Positions 39,114 through 48,618 of a DNA stretch of 64,000 nucleotides are shown in pieces (within the stretch, counting starts at the first letter, position 1; every line of letters starts with the position of its first letter). The position numbers and the translations under genes are program-made. This DNA is from Ignavibacteria bacterium (GTDB lineage: Bacteria > Bacteroidota > Ignavibacteria > Kapaibacteriales > Kapaibacteriaceae): the NCBI GenBank assembly GCA_016191145.1, contig JACPPD010000005.1, positions 1-64,000 of the forward strand. Reading direction: 5' to 3'. Below the pieces are notes generated by a model. That model was not told the DNA's origin, searched no databases, and saw only the letters and a list, made by a program, of their open reading frames with translations.

Positions 39114-39834
39114 GGCATCGGGAAGCGAGAAGTTTCAACAGTATGAGCGGTGGCTTCGGGCAGCCGCTACCGACGTTGAAATCGTTGATCTGATTTCGCT
39201 CAGCCCGCACGGTGCAGTGCAGAAACTCTCTGAATGCTCGGGCTTGGTGTTAACCGGCGGATCCGACATCAATCCGGATAGGTATGGCAAACCAGAGATG
39301 GCAGATGTTTGTCAGGACATCGACGACGTACGCGATGAATTGGAACTTGCCGTTGCTCGAGCAGCCATAGAGATGCGGATGCCCGTGCTCGGCGTCTGTC
39401 GCGGATTTCAAATCCTGAATGTTGCATTCGGAGGCTCGCTCATTGCAGACATCCCATCGATGTACAAGAGCGAAGTGGAGCATGGAAAGACGGGCGGACA
39501 CGATGCTCTTCACTACATTGAAATTGAGCCGGGATCAATCATCAGGCGAATTTCAAAAACTATGGATGGCACTGTCAACAGCGCACATCACCAGGCTATC
39601 GACAAATTAGCGGACGTCTTTACTCCGAGTGCCCGCGCCCACGACGGAATTATCGAGGCATTCGAATGGGGCGATGCTACGTTAGGGGGCAAACCATTCC
39701 TGCTTGCAGTGCAGTGGCATCCGGAGCGTCTGAAATCCGACTCTGCCTTTTCATTGCCTATCGCCCGCCACTTCCTTGAGGAGGCGCGTGCCTATTCGAT
39801 TTTGTTTGCAGGTGTGAATAATAACAATTCTTAA
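39094..39834 (+). CDS. Class I glutamine amidotransferase-like hydrolase (peptidase C26, PuuD-like)
   Basis: ATG 39094, inside the lpxK 3' end. Oxyanion region 'GLVLTGGSDINPDRYG', nucleophile C102 in 'VLGVCRGFQILNVAFGG', and H209/E211 in 'LAVQWHPERL'. This is the gamma-glutamyl-gamma-aminobutyrate hydrolase type: a stand-alone glutamine-amidotransferase fold without a synthase domain. The actual substrate may be another gamma-glutamyl amide. Its stop (TAA) overlaps that of the convergent gene in the sequence TTAA. Confidence 0.85.
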   Translation: MKIAISKASGSEKFQQYERWLRAAATDVEIVDLISLSPHGAVQKLSECSGLVLTGGSDINPDRYGKPEMADVCQDIDDVRDELELAVARAAIEMRMPVLGVCRGFQILNVAFGGSLIADIPSMYKSEVEHGKTGGHDALHYIEIEPGSIIRRISKTMDGTVNSAHHQAIDKLADVFTPSARAHDGIIEAFEWGDATLGGKPFLLAVQWHPERLKSDSAFSLPIARHFLEEARAYSILFAGVNNNNS

Positions 39835-41588
39835 TTACTCGGAAGTTTCGTATCTATCTGAATGGAGCCAGCGCTGTTGCGAAGTCCGTTTATTACAGTT
39901 TCAATGTACGCTGCACTGATAGTAACAAAGGGTAGCAACGAATAACTAACAGCCAGCAGGGAGTGATCACCATTGCCCGACCCAACAATGGTTCGCATCA
40001 TGCCCTCGGTTTCAACTTCTACGGCATAGGGGGCAACCTCTATCGAGGGAGATCGGTACGTTGTAAGCCGTGTGCGAAAGCTGATGTTTGCAAAGGGTTG
40101 CCAAACAAATTCTGTGAAGGCTAATAACCCTGTTTCGGATGCACGGCCAAGACCGAACTGCGCCGCTCTTCCATCCACTCTTAACCTCACACGAAGAGAG
40201 CGTGCCACGCTGAATGCGTAGTCGGCTTGAACAGTGCCTCGCCTGCGCACGTACATTTTTGTGATGTTGCTTTCGGGCAGTTTCCACCCATCATCATCTT
40301 GTTCATAGCGCAACCTCAGCGACAGGGCAGCCCCCTTACTGATTCCACGCGTAAGGTTGAACAGCAAGTCGTAACCCTTTGCAGGCTGGGGCTTGCCAAA
40401 AGACCTCGTAAGAGTTCGATGAACATCGAGCGATGCTTCGCATCGCCATTCGGGTTGGATTCGGAACTGAGCTCCCACTGTAATCCCCATTTCGTTTCCG
40501 ATATAGGATTGCGTGGAAACTGTGTTGCCATACGGACTGCGCAGATCTCTCTCGAACCACCTTACAACGCCGATAAGTTTTGCATGAGTGAGGAGCGATG
40601 ATGCAATGATGTTAGTACCGAAGCGCCCATCCTGATCGAGCGCTGTTTCCCAACTCAGAGTGAGGTTGGAGAAAGATTTATCAGCGTATACTGAGAATAG
40701 CGATTGCGTGAGACCGCTGAAAGTTGCCATTCCCGTAGAGACGGAAGTTTTGTTGTACTGCAGCCTCTGATATCCGATGCCGAAATTGAGCAGCGGCGAT
40801 TGATAGCTGGCAATGGTGCCTGTCAGGATTTCATTACGTCCATTGATCAGTTTGTTGGAATACATTGCCGAAAGCTGCATCGGCATGCCGCTGACAGAAT
40901 CACAGTATAATATTCCAATGCCGCGCAACGAACCGTCGAGCCAGGTCGAAGTCCATGGTTGAAGTTTAATATCGGCTGTTGACGATTCCGTATTTACAAC
41001 CGTCCTGCTGAACCTACTGCCTCCATATACTAAACCTGTTGATGATTTTACTTTGAAATTTCCCAGAACAAGGGAGACGTTTTTCGTTTGAACCTGAAGC
41101 CATGCGCCATAAAACAGTGTGTCGTTCTGACGTCGGGAAAAACCACCTATTCTGGCAACCGAGGCGTCTACGTCGAGTCGCGTAAGCATATCGGCGTAGT
41201 TACCGTTTTGCATCCTGAGGCGCGACCTCATTCTTGCCGATTGAATTGTTGGCGGACAGGTACAGTCGAACGTTGTGCATGTGTTAAGAATAATGAATTG
41301 ATCGGTGCTTAAGCACAACGTGTCTGCTATTGTTTCTAATGATCTGATACCCTTGTTTACCAATTTCATTATGCGCGATGCAGTATTGATTCCAATACCT
41401 GGCAGCACAGTCAGATCGTTAGGTTCCATACAGTTCAAACACAAGGGATCCTGTCTGTAGCGTTCAATTGCGTCCCATACAGGCAGCGCCCACGGTGAAT
41501 CGGCCACGTCGTCGATTTGGGCTAGCAACGGTTTAGCCAAGCTCAAGCACGATACCGAGACGATGACCAATATCCACAAGCAGGTCAT
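39831..41588 (-). CDS. Exported helix-hairpin-helix protein with C-terminal beta-barrel
   Basis: 585 residues: signal peptide (MTCLWILVIVSVSCLSLAKP), a short Cys-rich segment, then a helix-hairpin-helix motif 'PNDLTVLPGIGINTASRIMK' like ComEA. Next comes 'CTTFDCTCP', then about 450 residues of alternating strands with aromatic girdles ending in '...IQIDTKLPSN', resembling an outer-membrane barrel. HhH motifs bind DNA backbone non-specifically in known proteins, so a periplasm-facing DNA-binding plug on a barrel is conceivable (inference). The N-terminal coding region overlaps the preceding gene by 56 nt; a later start would lose the signal peptide. Confidence 0.75.
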   Translation of the reverse strand: MTCLWILVIVSVSCLSLAKPLLAQIDDVADSPWALPVWDAIERYRQDPLCLNCMEPNDLTVLPGIGINTASRIMKLVNKGIRSLETIADTLCLSTDQFIILNTCTTFDCTCPPTIQSARMRSRLRMQNGNYADMLTRLDVDASVARIGGFSRRQNDTLFYGAWLQVQTKNVSLVLGNFKVKSSTGLVYGGSRFSRTVVNTESSTADIKLQPWTSTWLDGSLRGIGILYCDSVSGMPMQLSAMYSNKLINGRNEILTGTIASYQSPLLNFGIGYQRLQYNKTSVSTGMATFSGLTQSLFSVYADKSFSNLTLSWETALDQDGRFGTNIIASSLLTHAKLIGVVRWFERDLRSPYGNTVSTQSYIGNEMGITVGAQFRIQPEWRCEASLDVHRTLTRSFGKPQPAKGYDLLFNLTRGISKGAALSLRLRYEQDDDGWKLPESNITKMYVRRRGTVQADYAFSVARSLRVRLRVDGRAAQFGLGRASETGLLAFTEFVWQPFANISFRTRLTTYRSPSIEVAPYAVEVETEGMMRTIVGSGNGDHSLLAVSYSLLPFVTISAAYIETVINGLRNSAGSIQIDTKLPSN

Positions 41589-42273
41589 ACATCACAGAGA
41601 TATAGAGGTCTGATGAAGATGCGAGTCGCACATCGGCGCCAAACGAAAGAGGATCGGAGACTATGCGCGTACGGACGCCTACGCTCTCGTGAGGGCGAAC
41701 AAGCGCCGATATTTCGATTGCTGCCCTGTTGGCAGATTGTGCAACTACATCGAATGCAATTGCATAACCATCTTGATACGCAACACCGAACCGCAATTGT
41801 CGCGGCAGATTTCTGCCTGTTATCGGTGTAGAAAGAGCATTGGAAATGCCGACGCCAACGGTCCAATGTGTGTCTACGATGATACGTGACTGAATACCCA
41901 ATGCAGCACGAATATTTGCTGAGAAGCCAGCAGCCCTGCTGGCGCCCACATCGGCAATTGTGCCAACATCGAATATGCTAGTGATGGGCCAGCGGCGCGA
42001 TGCCCTTAACGAAACATCGAACCAATTCTCCGACGCACCACCCTGAATTGCAAACACTGTTTGTAGCTGTTGAATAGAGCGTGCCACAGTTGCATTTGTG
42101 AGTGAGGGTTCGGCAAAGGGCGCAGGATAGACTGCAAATGTCCACGGCTGAATTTGTGCGCTGGTACACGGAGTTGATAGCCGATCTGCCGTGTTGAGCA
42201 CCGTTGCGCCTGTAATACTAAGCCCCTTAAGGGTATACACCATAAAAGGAAGCATGATCGTCACAAACAGCAT
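41533..42273 (-). CDS. Probable outer-membrane beta-barrel protein, unknown family
   Basis: The frame extends upstream, but ATG 42273 (or 42255) fits a short hydrophobic leader (MLFVTIMLPFMVYTLKGLSI) and clears the divergent porD gene. The mature part has many amphipathic strands with alternating residues ('IIVDTHWTVGVGISNALS', 'LRFGVAYQDGYAIAFDVVAQ', 'SVGVRTRIVSDPLSFGADVR') and ends in a barrel-like final strand 'RLGIVLELG'. About 247 residues. Overlaps the HhH-barrel gene, so the two are probably co-expressed and may act together. Confidence 0.65.
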   Translation of the reverse strand: MLFVTIMLPFMVYTLKGLSITGATVLNTADRLSTPCTSAQIQPWTFAVYPAPFAEPSLTNATVARSIQQLQTVFAIQGGASENWFDVSLRASRRWPITSIFDVGTIADVGASRAAGFSANIRAALGIQSRIIVDTHWTVGVGISNALSTPITGRNLPRQLRFGVAYQDGYAIAFDVVAQSANRAAIEISALVRPHESVGVRTRIVSDPLSFGADVRLASSSDLYISVMYDLLVDIGHRLGIVLELG

Positions 42274-42310
42274 GCGTATGTTCGTACAGGTTATAATCAA
42301 GGGCCTCATA

Positions 42311-43213
42311 ATGAGATCTGCAGCGGTATTGCTTTTTGCTTTCGTAACAGCCAATTGTTGTGTTGTGACAATGAGGGCGCAGGAGGTTGACGCTACCGTA
42401 AACGTCAACATGGAATTATTGCAGCTCGACCAGCGAACTGAGGTACAGGCGATGGCGAACGATGTGCGGAACTATCTGAATAACCAGCGTTTCACAAATG
42501 CAGACTGGGATGGTCCGCGGATTCCGATAACAGTCACTATTTATCTGAACACGCGCAACGGCGATTTGTATAGCGCGAAACTTGCTATAGTTAGTAAAAG
42601 GCTTGTGAACAACGATTCAACTATGGGAGCAGCGTTGCTGCGAGTTTTCGATCAGGACTGGCAATTCAGGTATTCATTTAGTCAGGCGTTAACTTTTCAG
42701 ATGAGCCGATACGAGCCGTTTTCGAGCCTGATTGACTTTTATATTCTTATTGCAATCGGTTTGGATATGGATACGTATGATGATCTCGGCGGATCCCGAA
42801 TGTACGATCAGGCCAAACTGATTGCAGGATTGGGCAATGCGGCAGGTATTGCGCAGTTTTCGTCGAACTTCCAGCCCGGCCAATACACTCGTATGGCGCT
42901 AGTATCGGAACTCACCGATTTACGATATGTCGGGCTTCGTAGACTTATTTACGATTATCATGTAGCTGTGGACGAGTACTCCGTCAACAAGGCAAAAGGC
43001 CTCGAGAGTTTAGCTTCCACAATAGCCGGCATCGCCGAATTCAAGAGGACTTCTATTGCGAATCGTTCGATTTTGCTGCAGGCATTTTTTGACGCAAAAA
43101 GTCAGGAAATCGCAGATATCTTTAAGGGACAGACAAATTCTTCTGTATGGGGAGACTTGCGATATCTCGATCCGGGTAACACCCAATTATATGAGACTGC
43201 TCGCGGTGGATAG
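42311..43213 (+). CDS. porD: PorD-like type IX secretion protein (DUF4835)
   Basis: ATG 42311 gives a signal peptide (MRSAAVLLFAFVTANCC...MRAQ); ATG 42272 is possible but would overlap the divergent gene. The mature N-terminus 'QEVDATVNVNMELLQLDQRT', followed by 'FTNADWDGPRIPITVTIYL', 'DQDWQFRYSFSQALTF', 'FSSLIDFYILIAIGLDMDTY' and 'RYVGLRRLIYDYHVAVDEYS', matches the DUF4835 family, which includes PorD, needed for T9SS function in Porphyromonas. It would serve the many T9SS cargos in this window. 300 residues. Confidence 0.8.
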   Translation: MRSAAVLLFAFVTANCCVVTMRAQEVDATVNVNMELLQLDQRTEVQAMANDVRNYLNNQRFTNADWDGPRIPITVTIYLNTRNGDLYSAKLAIVSKRLVNNDSTMGAALLRVFDQDWQFRYSFSQALTFQMSRYEPFSSLIDFYILIAIGLDMDTYDDLGGSRMYDQAKLIAGLGNAAGIAQFSSNFQPGQYTRMALVSELTDLRYVGLRRLIYDYHVAVDEYSVNKAKGLESLASTIAGIAEFKRTSIANRSILLQAFFDAKSQEIADIFKGQTNSSVWGDLRYLDPGNTQLYETARGG

Positions 43214-43236: not shown

Positions 43237-44427
43237 ATGTCTGACGTTCAGCGCAAGCATGAGCATTTCATGCGTATGGCAATCGAAGAAGCGCAGAGTG
43301 CCGCAGCCAGAGGCGATGTTCCTGTAGGATGCGTTATTGTAAGGGGTGGGGAAGTGGTTGCAGCATCTGCAAACGAAATCGAATTGTCTGGCGATCCCAT
43401 CAGACATGCCGAGATGATTGCAATCAGTCTGGCAACCGAAAAAGTTGGTGCTAAATTCCTTGATGATTGCACGATATACGTTACTCTGGAACCATGCGCA
43501 ATGTGTGCCGGAGCAATTGTTCTTGCGCGGATTCCTAACCTTGTTTATGGGGCATCCGACGAAAAGACAGGAGCAGTACGTTCAGTATTCGAGATAGCTG
43601 ACGATTCCAGACTCAACCATCGGTGTACAATCCGCACTGGAGTGCTTGCAAATGATTGCTCGGAGCTGCTTTCAGAATTTTTTGAAGCACAAAGAAATCA
43701 AGTTGGCCAGCCGGATGAATCAATCGGTCCAGATCTGCACGCGAGACTCACACTAGTCCCCACCCCCATTGGCAACCTCGAAGACATTACCATCCGATCG
43801 CTAAAAGTGCTGCAAAAGTCGGATATTATACTTTGTGAGGATACGAGGACTACCGGCCGACTTCTACGGCACTTGAAAATCCATTCCAAGAGATTACTTA
43901 GTAACAATGATTACAATGAACACGAACGGGCCTCTTCCGTTGTGCAGCACATCCAGCAGGGCCGCTCGGTGGCGCTCGTCTCAGATGCAGGGATGCCGGG
44001 AATCAGCGATCCAGGGTATCGTATTGTCGAGGCATGTATCAAAGCCGGGATCCGCGTCGAGGCACTGCCTGGTCCCTCTGCGCTCACAACTGCAATAGCA
44101 GCTTCCGGACTTCCAACAGACAGGCTTTGTTTTGTGGGATTCCCGCCTCACAAAAAGGGACGCAAGCGATTTCTGGCTGAAACCCTGAATATGAGCGCAA
44201 CAATTGTGATTTTTGAATCGCCATTTCGCATCGAGCAGTTACTGCAGGAAATTATCGAGTTGGGAAGCCCCCTTACATCAGTCGTAATCGCGCGAGAATT
44301 ATCGAAGGTTCACGAAGAATACATCAGGGGTCCGGTTGCTGATGTTCTCGAACAGATTGTAAAACGCGGCGGCATACGCGGCGAGTGTGTTGTGCTGGTT
44401 GATACTCGTAAGGAGAGAGTGGACTGA
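43237..44427 (+). CDS. TadA-RsmI fusion: tRNA A34 deaminase joined to 16S rRNA C1402 ribose methyltransferase
   Basis: One uninterrupted 396-residue frame. Residues 1-152 are a complete TadA: zinc ligands H57 (HAE, with catalytic E59) and C87/C90 (PCAMC). Residues about 153-170 are a polar linker. Residues 171-396 are a complete RsmI: 'LVPTPIGNLEDITIRSLKVL', 'CEDTRTTGRLLRHL', 'VALVSDAGMPGISDPGYRIV', 'EALPGPSALTTAIAASGLP', 'GFPPHKKGRK'. The linker has no in-frame ATG, GTG or TTG, so RsmI has no separate start apart from one CTG. The two activities would be wobble inosine formation (tRNA-Arg ACG) and 2'-O-methylation of C1402. The downstream tmk overlaps by one base. Confidence 0.93.
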   Translation: MSDVQRKHEHFMRMAIEEAQSAAARGDVPVGCVIVRGGEVVAASANEIELSGDPIRHAEMIAISLATEKVGAKFLDDCTIYVTLEPCAMCAGAIVLARIPNLVYGASDEKTGAVRSVFEIADDSRLNHRCTIRTGVLANDCSELLSEFFEAQRNQVGQPDESIGPDLHARLTLVPTPIGNLEDITIRSLKVLQKSDIILCEDTRTTGRLLRHLKIHSKRLLSNNDYNEHERASSVVQHIQQGRSVALVSDAGMPGISDPGYRIVEACIKAGIRVEALPGPSALTTAIAASGLPTDRLCFVGFPPHKKGRKRFLAETLNMSATIVIFESPFRIEQLLQEIIELGSPLTSVVIARELSKVHEEYIRGPVADVLEQIVKRGGIRGECVVLVDTRKERVD

Positions 44428-45041
44428 TGTTTATTTCGTTTGAAGGCATTGATGGAAGCGGGAAGTCCACGCAATTAGTGTTGCTTCGCGAATGGTTTGA
44501 AGAGAGGGGCCGCTCGATAGTAACCATTCGAGAGCCGGGCGCCACATACCTTTCAGAGGCTATAAGGGATATTCTTCTCAGCAACAAACAGTCAATAACG
44601 GCAACAGCCGAGCTGCTGCTGTTTTCAGCTGCGAGGACGCAACTGGTAGAGACTGTTATTCAGACAAGTTTAGACCGTGGCGATGTTGTTTTGTGCGACC
44701 GATATGTTGACTCCACGACTGCCTATCAGGGCTACGGACGCCAACTGACGCTTGAATCCGTTGAAATATGTAACAGCCTGGCTGCTCGGGGAGTCATGCC
44801 TGTGCTGACGTTTTTTATCGACGTACCGTACAACGAAGCCCAAACGAGAATGCAGTTTGAGACATCGCAAGCAAAGCCCGACCGCATAGAGAGCAGCGGT
44901 CCTGAATTTTTCGAAAGGGTTCGCAGCGGATATCTTGCTATCGCCGCTCAGGAACCGTCGCGGTTCATCGTGATAAACGGTGTTCAGGAGAGAGATGCCA
45001 TTCACAGAGAGATCGTTTCAATTGTTGAAAGACGATTGTAA
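44427..45041 (+). CDS. tmk: Thymidylate kinase
   Basis: 204 residues; its ATG shares one base with the preceding TGA (TGATG). P-loop 'FEGIDGSGKSTQ' at residues 5-16, 'IREPGATYLSEAIR' (usually REPGGT), the DRY-type motif 'VVLCDRYVDSTTAYQGYGR', and a LID region with 'KPDRIESSGPEFFERVRSGY'. Phosphorylates dTMP to dTDP. Confidence 0.95.
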   Translation: MFISFEGIDGSGKSTQLVLLREWFEERGRSIVTIREPGATYLSEAIRDILLSNKQSITATAELLLFSAARTQLVETVIQTSLDRGDVVLCDRYVDSTTAYQGYGRQLTLESVEICNSLAARGVMPVLTFFIDVPYNEAQTRMQFETSQAKPDRIESSGPEFFERVRSGYLAIAAQEPSRFIVINGVQERDAIHREIVSIVERRL

Positions 45042-45111
45042 TAATTGGAATAGCACTACAGGTATCGCCATTTTCCTTAATTTTCAAGTTCATTCAACCA
45101 ACGGATTTAGG

Positions 45112-47688
45112 ATGAAGTATATTCATTTTGTACTCTCACTGTTTTTCATCGCATGTGTAATTAGTGCTCAGGCAGGTAATTCAGCCAGCATAGATGCACG
45201 GCAGTTTCTGGTGCCAGTTATCAGCGCCTCCAAGGAGACTCCTGTTAATACTCTGGCATTTGAAAATATTTTTATGCTGCAGATAGATGCAGCAAACGAT
45301 GTTTTTCATAAAGCTCCCGCCCAGTTAACGATTTCCAATTTTGCGATTCCACTTCATGGCGAGTCGACGCTGAAGCTCCGCAAAACTGCAGATGTCTTTG
45401 ATGCCAACACTCAGTTTCTTATCAATACTGCAAATGGCAAACGCCGTTTTAAGGTGCGCCCGATTTACTCCTACCTTGGCGAAGTTGAAGGTGATGCCGG
45501 ATCGAGAGTAACGCTGCATTATTCTGATGGTGATCTGACTGGATTTATTCAGCATTCGGATGGTTCGCGCACCAACATCGGACGAGACATTAAAGCAAGG
45601 GAAATTGAAGGCGCTTCGCAGCATTTCGTCTCTAATGAAAATGCTATCTCTGCCGGAAATACATTCAAGGATTTTGTTTGCGGTAACGACCTTCTACCTG
45701 TGGATGATGAAGCCATGAAAAAATCAATGGCAATTACTGCATCGAAGATTTCAAAAGGTGAATCGATTCAGCAGATGCCATTGTTGGAAATGAATTTGGC
45801 GATTGTTCTTCGGGAAGACATCGACAGCATACTGAAACGTGTCGGATACACCGATGAGCAAGAGGCGCAGCAATTCGCGAAACTTATTGCAGCGGTTTCG
45901 CAGGCATACGAAGAGGATTTAAGAACACGTCTCTACATTGGATATTTACTGGTACACACCTTAGACGAGCCGTCGGGCTATGTTAACACCGGCTCAAATC
46001 CCCCGGCTCTGCTGAGCGAATTCTCAAGGGACTGGTCGATATCCTATTCGGGTGTCGATAGAACGATTGCTCATATCTACACCGTCTCTAGGCCTTCCGG
46101 CAATGGTCAGTTTATCGGCGGTGTTGGATACGGGGGCGATGGCAGCAATGAGAAATTGTGCAGCAAGGAATACAGGGGCGGATATTCTATCAGCACAATT
46201 AATCTTACACAGGCTAGTGCAATGCCCGGTTCTCCTTATGTAAGAAATGCTTTTGTGTGGGATATGTTTGTTTCTGCACACGAAATGGGACACAACGTTG
46301 GAGCGCCCCACTCCCATAATTGCTACTGGAGCCCGCCGTTAGACACCTGTCTCTTAATAAGCGATGGGACAGATGCATGTTACAACGATCCCAGTCTGCG
46401 CCGAGTGCGAACTGGCACAATCATGAGTTATTGTCATCTTGTCAATGGCAGTTCCACAGCTTTCACTTTTGGTCCACGTATTTCCGAAGCCATGCGGTCA
46501 TGGATCGAAGATGCTCCTTGCGTGATTGAGCCACCTGCGCCAAAGCTCTCGATTACATCGCCACGCGGATCGGAGAAGTGGACAGGCGGTCAGGCTGTTA
46601 CAATTAAATGGGTGAGTTCAAAAGTATCATTGATCAATCTTGAGTACAGCCCCGATGGAGGATCGCAATGGATCCAAATAATTGGCAATAAACCCGCAGC
46701 CGATAGTGAGTATGTGTGGTCGGTTCCGTCCATTTCTGCTAACGAATTATGGATCCGCATTTCCGATGCATCGAATCCTGCTGTCAATGCCGTTTCTATT
46801 GCGTCACACTCAATTTCGATTCCGTTAACTTTTGTTTCTCCTGCAGGGGGCGAGCGAATCGGGCAAAAAACTAATTACACCATTCGGTGGGCGAAGACAA
46901 TTTCTGAAAATGTTAACCTCGACTTTGCACCCGACGGGACAACCTTTACAAGCCTCGCTGCAAATATTTCCGGAAGCTCGTACGATTGGACGACGCCCGA
47001 AATCGTAACTGAGAGTGCACGTTTACGCCTGACATCTGTTCAGAATTCTGAAGTGACAACGCAAAGCAATACGTTTGCAATCGGAGTGCCTTGGTTTAGA
47101 CTGTTGATTCCAGGCGAAGGCGCAGTGATCTGTAGTGACGTTGCTACGCAGTATAAGTGGGAAGGCGATTTTATTGATAGGATTAAAATTCAGTATTCAA
47201 TTGATGATGGCACCACGTGGAAGAATGCGCTTACCCAGGTAAGCGTGCCATTAAACCAGTTCCAAATCTTCAGCAAGGGTAGCTCGTTGAATAGTGTTGC
47301 AAGGGGAACAAAGGCTATTCTCCGCGTTGTGGAAAGCGCTCCGGATACCGTTCTTGATACACGATCAAATTTAACAGTCGATACTTGCGGAGTGGTGACG
47401 TCAGTCGATGGCTTGGCTGAAGTTTCCAATATGCAAATTACCCGCGTAGTTCCTAATCCTGCGTCAACCAACATCGAGATTAGTGTTGCGCACGCTAATT
47501 CTGGTGAAGCAGATGTTGTGCTGGTAGATGTAGCAGGACGTGAACGCGTACTGTCAACTGTTTCGTTGACCGGCAACCCCACTTCAATCATAAGTGTAGC
47601 GCTAAACAGTATTGCTCCCGGTTATTATCGGCTTATTGTAAAGTCCGGTGCATCTGTTGCAGATACACCACTGACTATTGTTCATTAA
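45112..47688 (+). CDS. Reprolysin-like (M12B-type) metalloprotease with Ig modules and T9SS sorting domain
   Basis: ATG 45112 gives a signal peptide (MKYIHFVLSLFFIACVISAQ). A propeptide-like region (about 20-210) precedes the metzincin catalytic domain with HExxHxxGxxH: H390, E391, H394 and H400 in 'HEMGHNVGAPHSHNC'. 'GTIMSYCHL' supplies the downstream Met-turn. Three Ig-like 'V.SP.GGE......Y.I.W' modules follow (about 475-780), then a T9SS domain ('ITRVVPNPASTNIEISV'). 858 residues. Probably a secreted endopeptidase that attacks host, prey or environmental protein; the substrate is unknown. Confidence 0.85.
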   Translation: MKYIHFVLSLFFIACVISAQAGNSASIDARQFLVPVISASKETPVNTLAFENIFMLQIDAANDVFHKAPAQLTISNFAIPLHGESTLKLRKTADVFDANTQFLINTANGKRRFKVRPIYSYLGEVEGDAGSRVTLHYSDGDLTGFIQHSDGSRTNIGRDIKAREIEGASQHFVSNENAISAGNTFKDFVCGNDLLPVDDEAMKKSMAITASKISKGESIQQMPLLEMNLAIVLREDIDSILKRVGYTDEQEAQQFAKLIAAVSQAYEEDLRTRLYIGYLLVHTLDEPSGYVNTGSNPPALLSEFSRDWSISYSGVDRTIAHIYTVSRPSGNGQFIGGVGYGGDGSNEKLCSKEYRGGYSISTINLTQASAMPGSPYVRNAFVWDMFVSAHEMGHNVGAPHSHNCYWSPPLDTCLLISDGTDACYNDPSLRRVRTGTIMSYCHLVNGSSTAFTFGPRISEAMRSWIEDAPCVIEPPAPKLSITSPRGSEKWTGGQAVTIKWVSSKVSLINLEYSPDGGSQWIQIIGNKPAADSEYVWSVPSISANELWIRISDASNPAVNAVSIASHSISIPLTFVSPAGGERIGQKTNYTIRWAKTISENVNLDFAPDGTTFTSLAANISGSSYDWTTPEIVTESARLRLTSVQNSEVTTQSNTFAIGVPWFRLLIPGEGAVICSDVATQYKWEGDFIDRIKIQYSIDDGTTWKNALTQVSVPLNQFQIFSKGSSLNSVARGTKAILRVVESAPDTVLDTRSNLTVDTCGVVTSVDGLAEVSNMQITRVVPNPASTNIEISVAHANSGEADVVLVDVAGRERVLSTVSLTGNPTSIISVALNSIAPGYYRLIVKSGASVADTPLTIVH

Positions 47689-47715: not shown

Positions 47716-48618
47716 ATGAGCCTCTTCAACAAGTTAGTTGTTACTACTCTGCCGGTAATTCCCAAAGGTATTGTAAAACTGGTGGCTCGGCGATACATCG
47801 CAGGGCCACTGTTGGCCGATGCCATACAGGTATCTGAACAACTTATGTTGTTAGGTGCGAGTTCAACGATTGACGTGTTGGGTGAATTTGTTGAGTCAGC
47901 CAATCGGGCACAAGAAGAAACACAGATGTCGAAAATGGTTATCGATGCAATTCGATCACGTAACCTTAATTCCTACCTAAGCGTCAAGCCAACTTCACTC
48001 GGTCTCAATATCGATAGCGAAATTGCCTATCGCAACATCACGGAAGTTGTAGCCCACGCTCGGGCATCGGGTGTGTTTGTCCGAATGGATATGGAAAACA
48101 CTCCGTTTACTTCTGCAACTCTTGATTTCTACAAACGATTGCGTAGGGATGGCTTTGATAACGTTGGAGTAGTTATACAGGCATATCTGCGCAGATCGGA
48201 AGCAGATGTGCTAGACCTGCTCCAATTCAAGCCTAGCGTAAGATTATGTAAAGGAATTTATCAAGAAAGCGAAGAACTGGCGTTTCGTGATGCTGATGAA
48301 ATCAGAAGTAATTACAAAAAATTGTTGCGCGTACTCATCGATGGCGGAGCGAGAACACACATTGCAACGCACGACGAAGAATTGTTGGCCGACGCAGAAC
48401 AACAGATTGCCCGACAACACTTGAACCCCGCTGAATATGAGTTTCAAATGCTCATGGGTGTGAGGGAAGAACGCAGAGATAAGCTTATTAAGGATGGACA
48501 TTCCGTTCGCATCTATGTACCTTTCGGTCACGACTGGTATGGATATTCTACACGGCGGCTAAAAGAAAACCCGCAGGTAGCTGGTTACATTGCAAAGGCT
48601 ATCTTTACGCGAAGATGA
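47716..48618 (+). CDS. Proline dehydrogenase (monofunctional)
   Basis: 300 residues of a TIM-barrel FAD enzyme. 'LNSYLSVKPTSLGLNID' (FAD-contacting 'KPT.LGL'), 'VFVRMDMENTPFTSATLDFY', 'VGVVIQAYLRRSEADV', 'VRLCKGIYQES', 'THIATHDEELL', 'EFQMLMGVRE' and the C-terminal 'RIYVPFGHDWYGYSTRRLKENP' are the PRODH set. Oxidises proline to pyrroline-5-carboxylate at the membrane. The partner P5C dehydrogenase is not in the window. Confidence 0.93.
   Translation: MSLFNKLVVTTLPVIPKGIVKLVARRYIAGPLLADAIQVSEQLMLLGASSTIDVLGEFVESANRAQEETQMSKMVIDAIRSRNLNSYLSVKPTSLGLNIDSEIAYRNITEVVAHARASGVFVRMDMENTPFTSATLDFYKRLRRDGFDNVGVVIQAYLRRSEADVLDLLQFKPSVRLCKGIYQESEELAFRDADEIRSNYKKLLRVLIDGGARTHIATHDEELLADAEQQIARQHLNPAEYEFQMLMGVREERRDKLIKDGHSVRIYVPFGHDWYGYSTRRLKENPQVAGYIAKAIFTRR

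Follow-up and report, generated by a model that had tools for sequence, protein, structure and literature searches.

A family-wide gene fusion combines the tRNA adenosine deaminase TadA with the rRNA methyltransferase RsmI

We analyzed a 64,000-nucleotide stretch of DNA (the window) in which a single open reading frame on the + strand (43237..44427, stop codon included) encodes a protein of 396 residues. The frame starts with ATG, inspection of both the DNA and its translation revealed no internal stop codon, and the computed mass of the product is 43.2 kDa. Both halves of the protein scored above curated NCBIfam cutoffs, the N-terminal half as tRNA adenosine(34) deaminase (NF008113, residues 4 to 156, 151.5 bits against a cutoff of 150) and the C-terminal half as RsmI (TIGR00096, residues 171 to 392, 233.8 bits against a cutoff of 167.9, profile positions 2 to 223 of 275). 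Pfam likewise identified a deaminase and a TP_methylase domain. The single-frame TadA-RsmI fusion that a first-pass annotation had proposed was thus borne out.

The TadA half (residues 1 to 156, 43237..43704, + strand) was delimited by the NCBIfam match, the family alignment, and solved chains; the linker (residues 154 to 169, 43696..43743, + strand) was delimited by the structure model and dN/dS; and the RsmI half (residues 170 to 396, 43744..44424, + strand), which comprises the catalytic domain without the RsmI_C helix-turn-helix (HTH), was delimited by NCBIfam and Pfam. The fused protein carries HAE (residues 57 to 59), PC..C (residues 86 to 90), PTPIGN, EDTR, and SDAGMPGISDPG. His57, Cys87, and Cys90, which we take to be the TadA zinc site, and Glu59, presumably the catalytic residue, are invariant in an 18-row alignment of the family (alignment A1). 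The HAE and PCxxC motifs are invariant in all 18 aligned rows, and each of the 23 genomes in the window's family has both patterns. Seven motif patterns were present together in 22 of the 23 family rows, the exception (G022) being without the ARE[LIV][ST]K pattern only.

When two family genomes (G000 and G001, a single pair) were compared, dN/dS was 0.071 for the TadA half and 0.072 for the RsmI half, relative to 0.605 for the linker (16 codons, 12 changes). These ratios indicate that strong purifying selection acts on both halves, in agreement with the proposal that both are intact. An AlphaFold2 model contained two confident parts, the first of which ends in a long helix (residues 138 to 155), separated by a linker with pLDDT values below 50 (residues 157 to 167); confidence was also low at residues 252 to 257 and at the end of the protein. 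The pTM of 0.55 leaves the arrangement of the two parts open. None of 53 distinct solved sequences matched at an E value of 1e-10 spanned both halves.

The linker comprises 14 residues by the NCBIfam boundaries and 22 residues from the "FF" of TadA to the LVPTPIGN block, so the earlier estimate of about 18 was a fair one. By the latter definition, the linkers of the family range from 22 to 57 residues and are unconserved in sequence, with Ala, Pro, Arg, and Glu as the commonest residues. The start codon aligns with position 43237 in 21 of the 23 family genomes. The first-pass annotation had argued that the RsmI half could not easily be made alone, given the absence of start codons from the linker. 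This holds in the window, where the linker contains no in-frame ATG, GTG, or TTG and the nearest upstream candidate is a GTG lying 39 codons before PTPIGN, within TadA. The argument is not general, however, since 19 of the 23 family linkers contain at least one such codon, preceded in 2 of the 23 by a loose Shine-Dalgarno-like match.

No match to the RsmI_C HTH domain (PF23016) was detected by Pfam in the fused protein. This domain is not universal and hence not defining: it was likewise absent from seven of nine stand-alone RsmI-type proteins scanned, while two proteins (L105 and L062) carry it. We considered loss of the HTH as a reason for the fusion and rejected it, because three unfused relatives from the same order that were scanned (L025, L028, and L030) also have no HTH domain.

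The neighboring genes are those that had been named at the outset. Upstream lies porD (DUF4835; 42191..43213, + strand), which scored 168.8 bits with NCBIfam, just under the PorD cutoff of 170, and whose true start is probably inside this open reading frame. Downstream lies tmk, encoding dTMP kinase (44427..45041, + strand), the ATG of which overlaps the rsmI stop codon by one base. A porD gene precedes the fusion in 22 of the 23 family genomes, none being found in G011, and tmk follows rsmI at all 23 fused loci and at all 7 unfused order loci of the same set. Elsewhere in the window, a protein with a T9SS type A sorting domain and a metalloprotease-like HEMGHNVGAPH motif, spotted by eye, is encoded at 44980-47688 (+), and a proline dehydrogenase-like protein (261 bits, under the model cutoff of 500) is encoded at 47716-48618 (+). 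The T9SS domain and the nearby porD would fit a Bacteroidota-like lineage. Two open reading frames on the - strand (41533-42411 and 39831-41588) gave no NCBIfam match, and the former gave no Pfam match either.

A search of the window's own genome (2.47 Mb, with a listed completeness of 99.96%) returned one full-length copy of the fusion and one weak deaminase match on another contig (C15). Since the latter is RibD (285.5 bits, cutoff 156.35), the fusion is the only TadA found in this genome; no second RsmI was found either. The TadA substrate tRNA-Arg(ACG) is present (ARAGORN, L146), as are tRNA-Arg species with the anticodons CCG, TCG, TCT, and CCT, in a survey covering the loci of 30 of 42 tRNA places. 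RsmH, the partner methylase at C1402, occurred in all 22 genomes searched, including the window's, and exceeded its cutoff in 21; in the remaining genome (G001), it is split across two contigs. The 16S rRNA gene, and hence C1402, was not found in the window's own assembly (G000), despite its completeness value of 99.96%. Separately, we observed a second RsmI-like paralogue in all 17 unfused order genomes searched (G023 to G039), versus 3 of the 23 fused-family genomes (G008, G009, and G013). Three such paralogues that were scanned (L168 to L170) exceeded the TIGR00096 cutoff; the aligned one (L169) has EEER in place of the EDTR block and matched the solved chain 5hw4 at 150.8 bits, compared with 187.9 bits for the fused half.

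We searched for the fusion across related genomes, as the first-pass annotation had suggested. All 60 genomes searched, among them the window's own, gave matches, and each of the 23 family members (G000 to G022), one of which (G004) is a single contig, carried the fusion in one frame without a stop. In G005, the match fell into two BLAST pieces that belong to one frame of 431 residues. Identity to the window protein ranged from 48 to 91% among the 17 other fusions in alignment A1, which comprises 18 rows, 5 of the 23 fusions being left out. A profile built from 18 of the 23 fusions was then run against 123 genomes of the order. It matched all 23 family fusions over their full length without a stop, and among the matches listed, no full-length stop-free fusion occurred in the other 100 order genomes, two of which (G091 and G118) gave weak best scores only, such that an unusual fusion there could escape. 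Frames able to hide a fusion were inspected directly in eight genomes (G029, G042, G053, G112, G047, G113, G144, and G210), and no RsmI fusion was present in them, the frame of G113 being judged outside a masked run.

Beyond the order, we sampled 294 genomes of the class, 40 of which had no match at 1e-60; among the matches listed, the fusions were confined to the 15 members of the window's family in this sample. A phylum sample of 395 genomes, searched at a threshold of 1e-110, yielded 10 fusions, all in this family. In the order and class scans, same-frame gene pairs reached 1e-147 to 1e-154 when aligned across their stop codon; the 1e-110 threshold should therefore admit fusions of similar divergence but could miss more diverged ones. 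Among the best 80 named loci, a set that may omit the window's own relatives and fusions from other phyla, tadA and rsmI did not emerge as neighbors in bacteria generally; no fused proteins occurred there, and only one locus (L036) had a flanking TadA match, on the opposite strand and ~2.5 kb away. Taken together, these results confirm that the fusion of these two known enzymes is genuine and family-wide. We found no description of it in the open-access literature searched, including the available portions of PMC4014445, PMC7694415, PMC10117853, and PMC7408541.

In 31 of 37 unfused genomes of the order, tadA immediately precedes rsmI on the same strand, at most 250 nt separating the match ends; in 2 of 37, the two lie within 1300 nt, and in 4 of 37, they are on different contigs. 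In G088, G100, G101, and G102, the rsmI ATG comes directly after the tadA stop and shares its frame, and same-frame pairs with one stop between them were also found in G054, from the order, and G153, from the class. The frames of the two genes agree in G029 as well, but two stops and ~180 nt intervene, and they differ in G036, G042, G045, G046, and G053. Separate genes with a stop and start at the junction in relatives had been named in advance as a finding that would speak against the fusion. They do exist outside the family, where they show the origin of the fusion rather than an error. Relatives in the order mostly carry separate neighboring genes, and in a few of these pairs a single stop is all that interrupts a shared frame. 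The fusion thus most likely originated when a tadA-rsmI pair of this kind lost its stop codon, which is the simplest account of the sequences.

The RsmI halves of the window's family formed one clade (support 98/91) in a 48-row tree. In the TadA tree from the same analysis, the family needs two changes, with 14% of bootstrap trees having one, and in a second TadA tree, where two TadA rows were replaced by longer stretches from the same genomes, G011 stood apart from the other 22 family members, which were joined at 95/92. The cut TadA sequences of G052 and G113 were left out of the TadA trees. The RsmI tree thus supports one origin of the fusion, and the TadA trees do not settle the count.

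We interpret the protein as a tethered bifunctional enzyme derived from two neighboring housekeeping genes and having two independent activities, a reading to which the sequence evidence leads us to assign a probability of about 0.8. According to this model, tadA would have lain directly upstream of rsmI in the ancestor of the family, with tmk behind, and loss of the tadA stop would have produced one reading frame and converted the old junction into a flexible tether. The TadA half is predicted to convert A34 of tRNA-Arg(ACG) to inosine, and the RsmI half is predicted to carry out 2'-O-methylation of C1402 in 16S rRNA on the 30S subunit. Each half would work like its stand-alone relatives, presumably with no special cross-talk, and both would probably dimerize. 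TadA is a dimer. RsmI crystallized as a homodimer and has 30S subunits as its substrate, according to the available text of PMC5053481. Use of one start would ensure equal production of both enzymes, although a balanced dose does not by itself account for the lack of any re-split gene among the 23 genomes. In the portions available, one source describes TadA as essential in Escherichia coli and Bacillus subtilis (PMC4014445), another describes it as dispensable in B. subtilis (PMC10454642), and a third reports no obvious growth defect upon loss of rsmI alone (PMC10117853).

The retention of the fusion in all 23 genomes of a diverged family could also reflect functional coupling, in which the RsmI half would anchor TadA at the assembling 30S subunit, or RNA binding by TadA would aid RsmI, such that editing and maturation of the decoding center are set together. 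Two further points could favor such coupling of wobble editing to decoding-center methylation: both modifications act in decoding, according to the available text of PMC5053481 and PMC10454642, and the RsmI half, which has no HTH, unlike L105 and L062, would have room for a substitute RNA-binding part. Yet the three unfused order relatives scanned have no HTH either, the linker is conserved in neither length nor sequence, and the substrates are different molecules (tRNA versus the 30S subunit), so we regard coupling as unlikely. Simple tethering appears to suit the data at least as well, because the tether is variable (22 to 57 residues, unconserved), the halves align with stand-alone enzymes, and the origin from a gene pair fits. 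A more specific version, in which docking of RsmI on late 30S subunits would bring TadA to the ribosome so that I34 on tRNA-Arg(ACG) and Cm1402 are set together by a decoding-quality enzyme, strikes us as a somewhat longer shot.

The start codons found in most family linkers raise the alternative that the gene is fused and the proteins are separate, such that internal initiation in the low-confidence linker, or its cleavage by proteases, would give RsmI (and TadA) as free proteins. However, four linkers, the window's included, contain no such codon, no conserved codon position or cut site was seen in the linkers by eye, and Shine-Dalgarno-like matches are confined to the two noted above, a count that would be uninformative in lineages making little use of such motifs. 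We therefore consider separate proteins improbable. Some fused proteins retain an inactive partner, and one half could in principle be a catalytically dead scaffold. Nothing in the sequence favors this beyond that general precedent, and the equal, strong purifying selection on both halves, their intact motifs, and the absence of a second TadA or RsmI from the matches in the window's genome make it very improbable. Finally, we found no supporting point for the view that a stop codon was lost through an error in sequencing or assembly; the frame is open in all 23 family genomes, in drafts and in the single contig alike, and the linkers have diverged. We rejected this explanation, whose probability is close to nil.

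TadA also shares an open frame with another enzyme domain elsewhere in the order. In genera g9 (family f3) and g11 (family f5), it lies behind an N-terminal Nudix (MutT-like) domain. Among the matches listed (L174 to L185, from G047, G024, G040, G057, G061, G026, G042, G048, G035, G058, G053, and G060, respectively), Pfam detected NUDIX upstream of TadA in 11 of the 12 genomes, the twelfth (G060) being cut by a contig end. These Nudix-TadA fusions are described here as open frames whose start codons are not fixed. Like TadA-RsmI, they combine TadA and a second enzyme domain within a single frame, but their partner is an N-terminal Nudix domain and rsmI is separate and downstream. In the second TadA tree, the two genera did not form one clade, their sequences falling into two supported groups of six, and the frames may have had one or two origins. 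No description of a Nudix-TadA fusion was present among the 8 of 45 open-access literature matches listed. Beta-Casp and RMMBL domains also matched farther upstream within the frame of G026 (L179, 349-2103, +), where they may represent another in-frame neighbor or a longer fusion. Under the improbable docking version of coupling described above, the repeated wiring of TadA in this order, to RsmI in the window's family and to Nudix in g9 and g11, would suggest that wobble editing is regulated.

Two widespread enzymes of translation, each with its own RNA substrate, are retained as a single chain throughout a family, which makes the fusion a natural test case for cooperation between tRNA wobble editing and decoding-site methylation. 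Its relatives, with separate neighbors, same-frame pairs with one stop, and the fusion itself, lay out a route to such a protein. Because adenine base editors derive from TadA, natural TadA fusions may also be useful in practice as scaffolds.

Compared with stand-alone TadA (NF008113; solved chains 2nx8, 1wwr, 2b3j, and 1z3a), the fused protein aligns over residues 8 to 155, zinc motif included, and differs in bearing a second enzyme at the C terminus of its TadA half. The RsmI half resembles RsmI (TIGR00096; solved chains 5hw4, 9pzg, and 3kwp), aligning over residues 2 to 225 with 5hw4, which we take to be E. coli RsmI, at 187.9 bits with the EDTR block included; it differs in being fused to TadA and in having no RsmI_C HTH, a feature shared with the three unfused order relatives scanned. 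RlmKL and MnmC are fused RNA modification enzymes with two enzymes per chain. Like TadA-RsmI, they unite in one chain two modification enzymes that are encoded by separate genes elsewhere, but RlmKL and MnmC both act twice on one class of RNA, whereas the halves of TadA-RsmI target tRNA and the 30S subunit.
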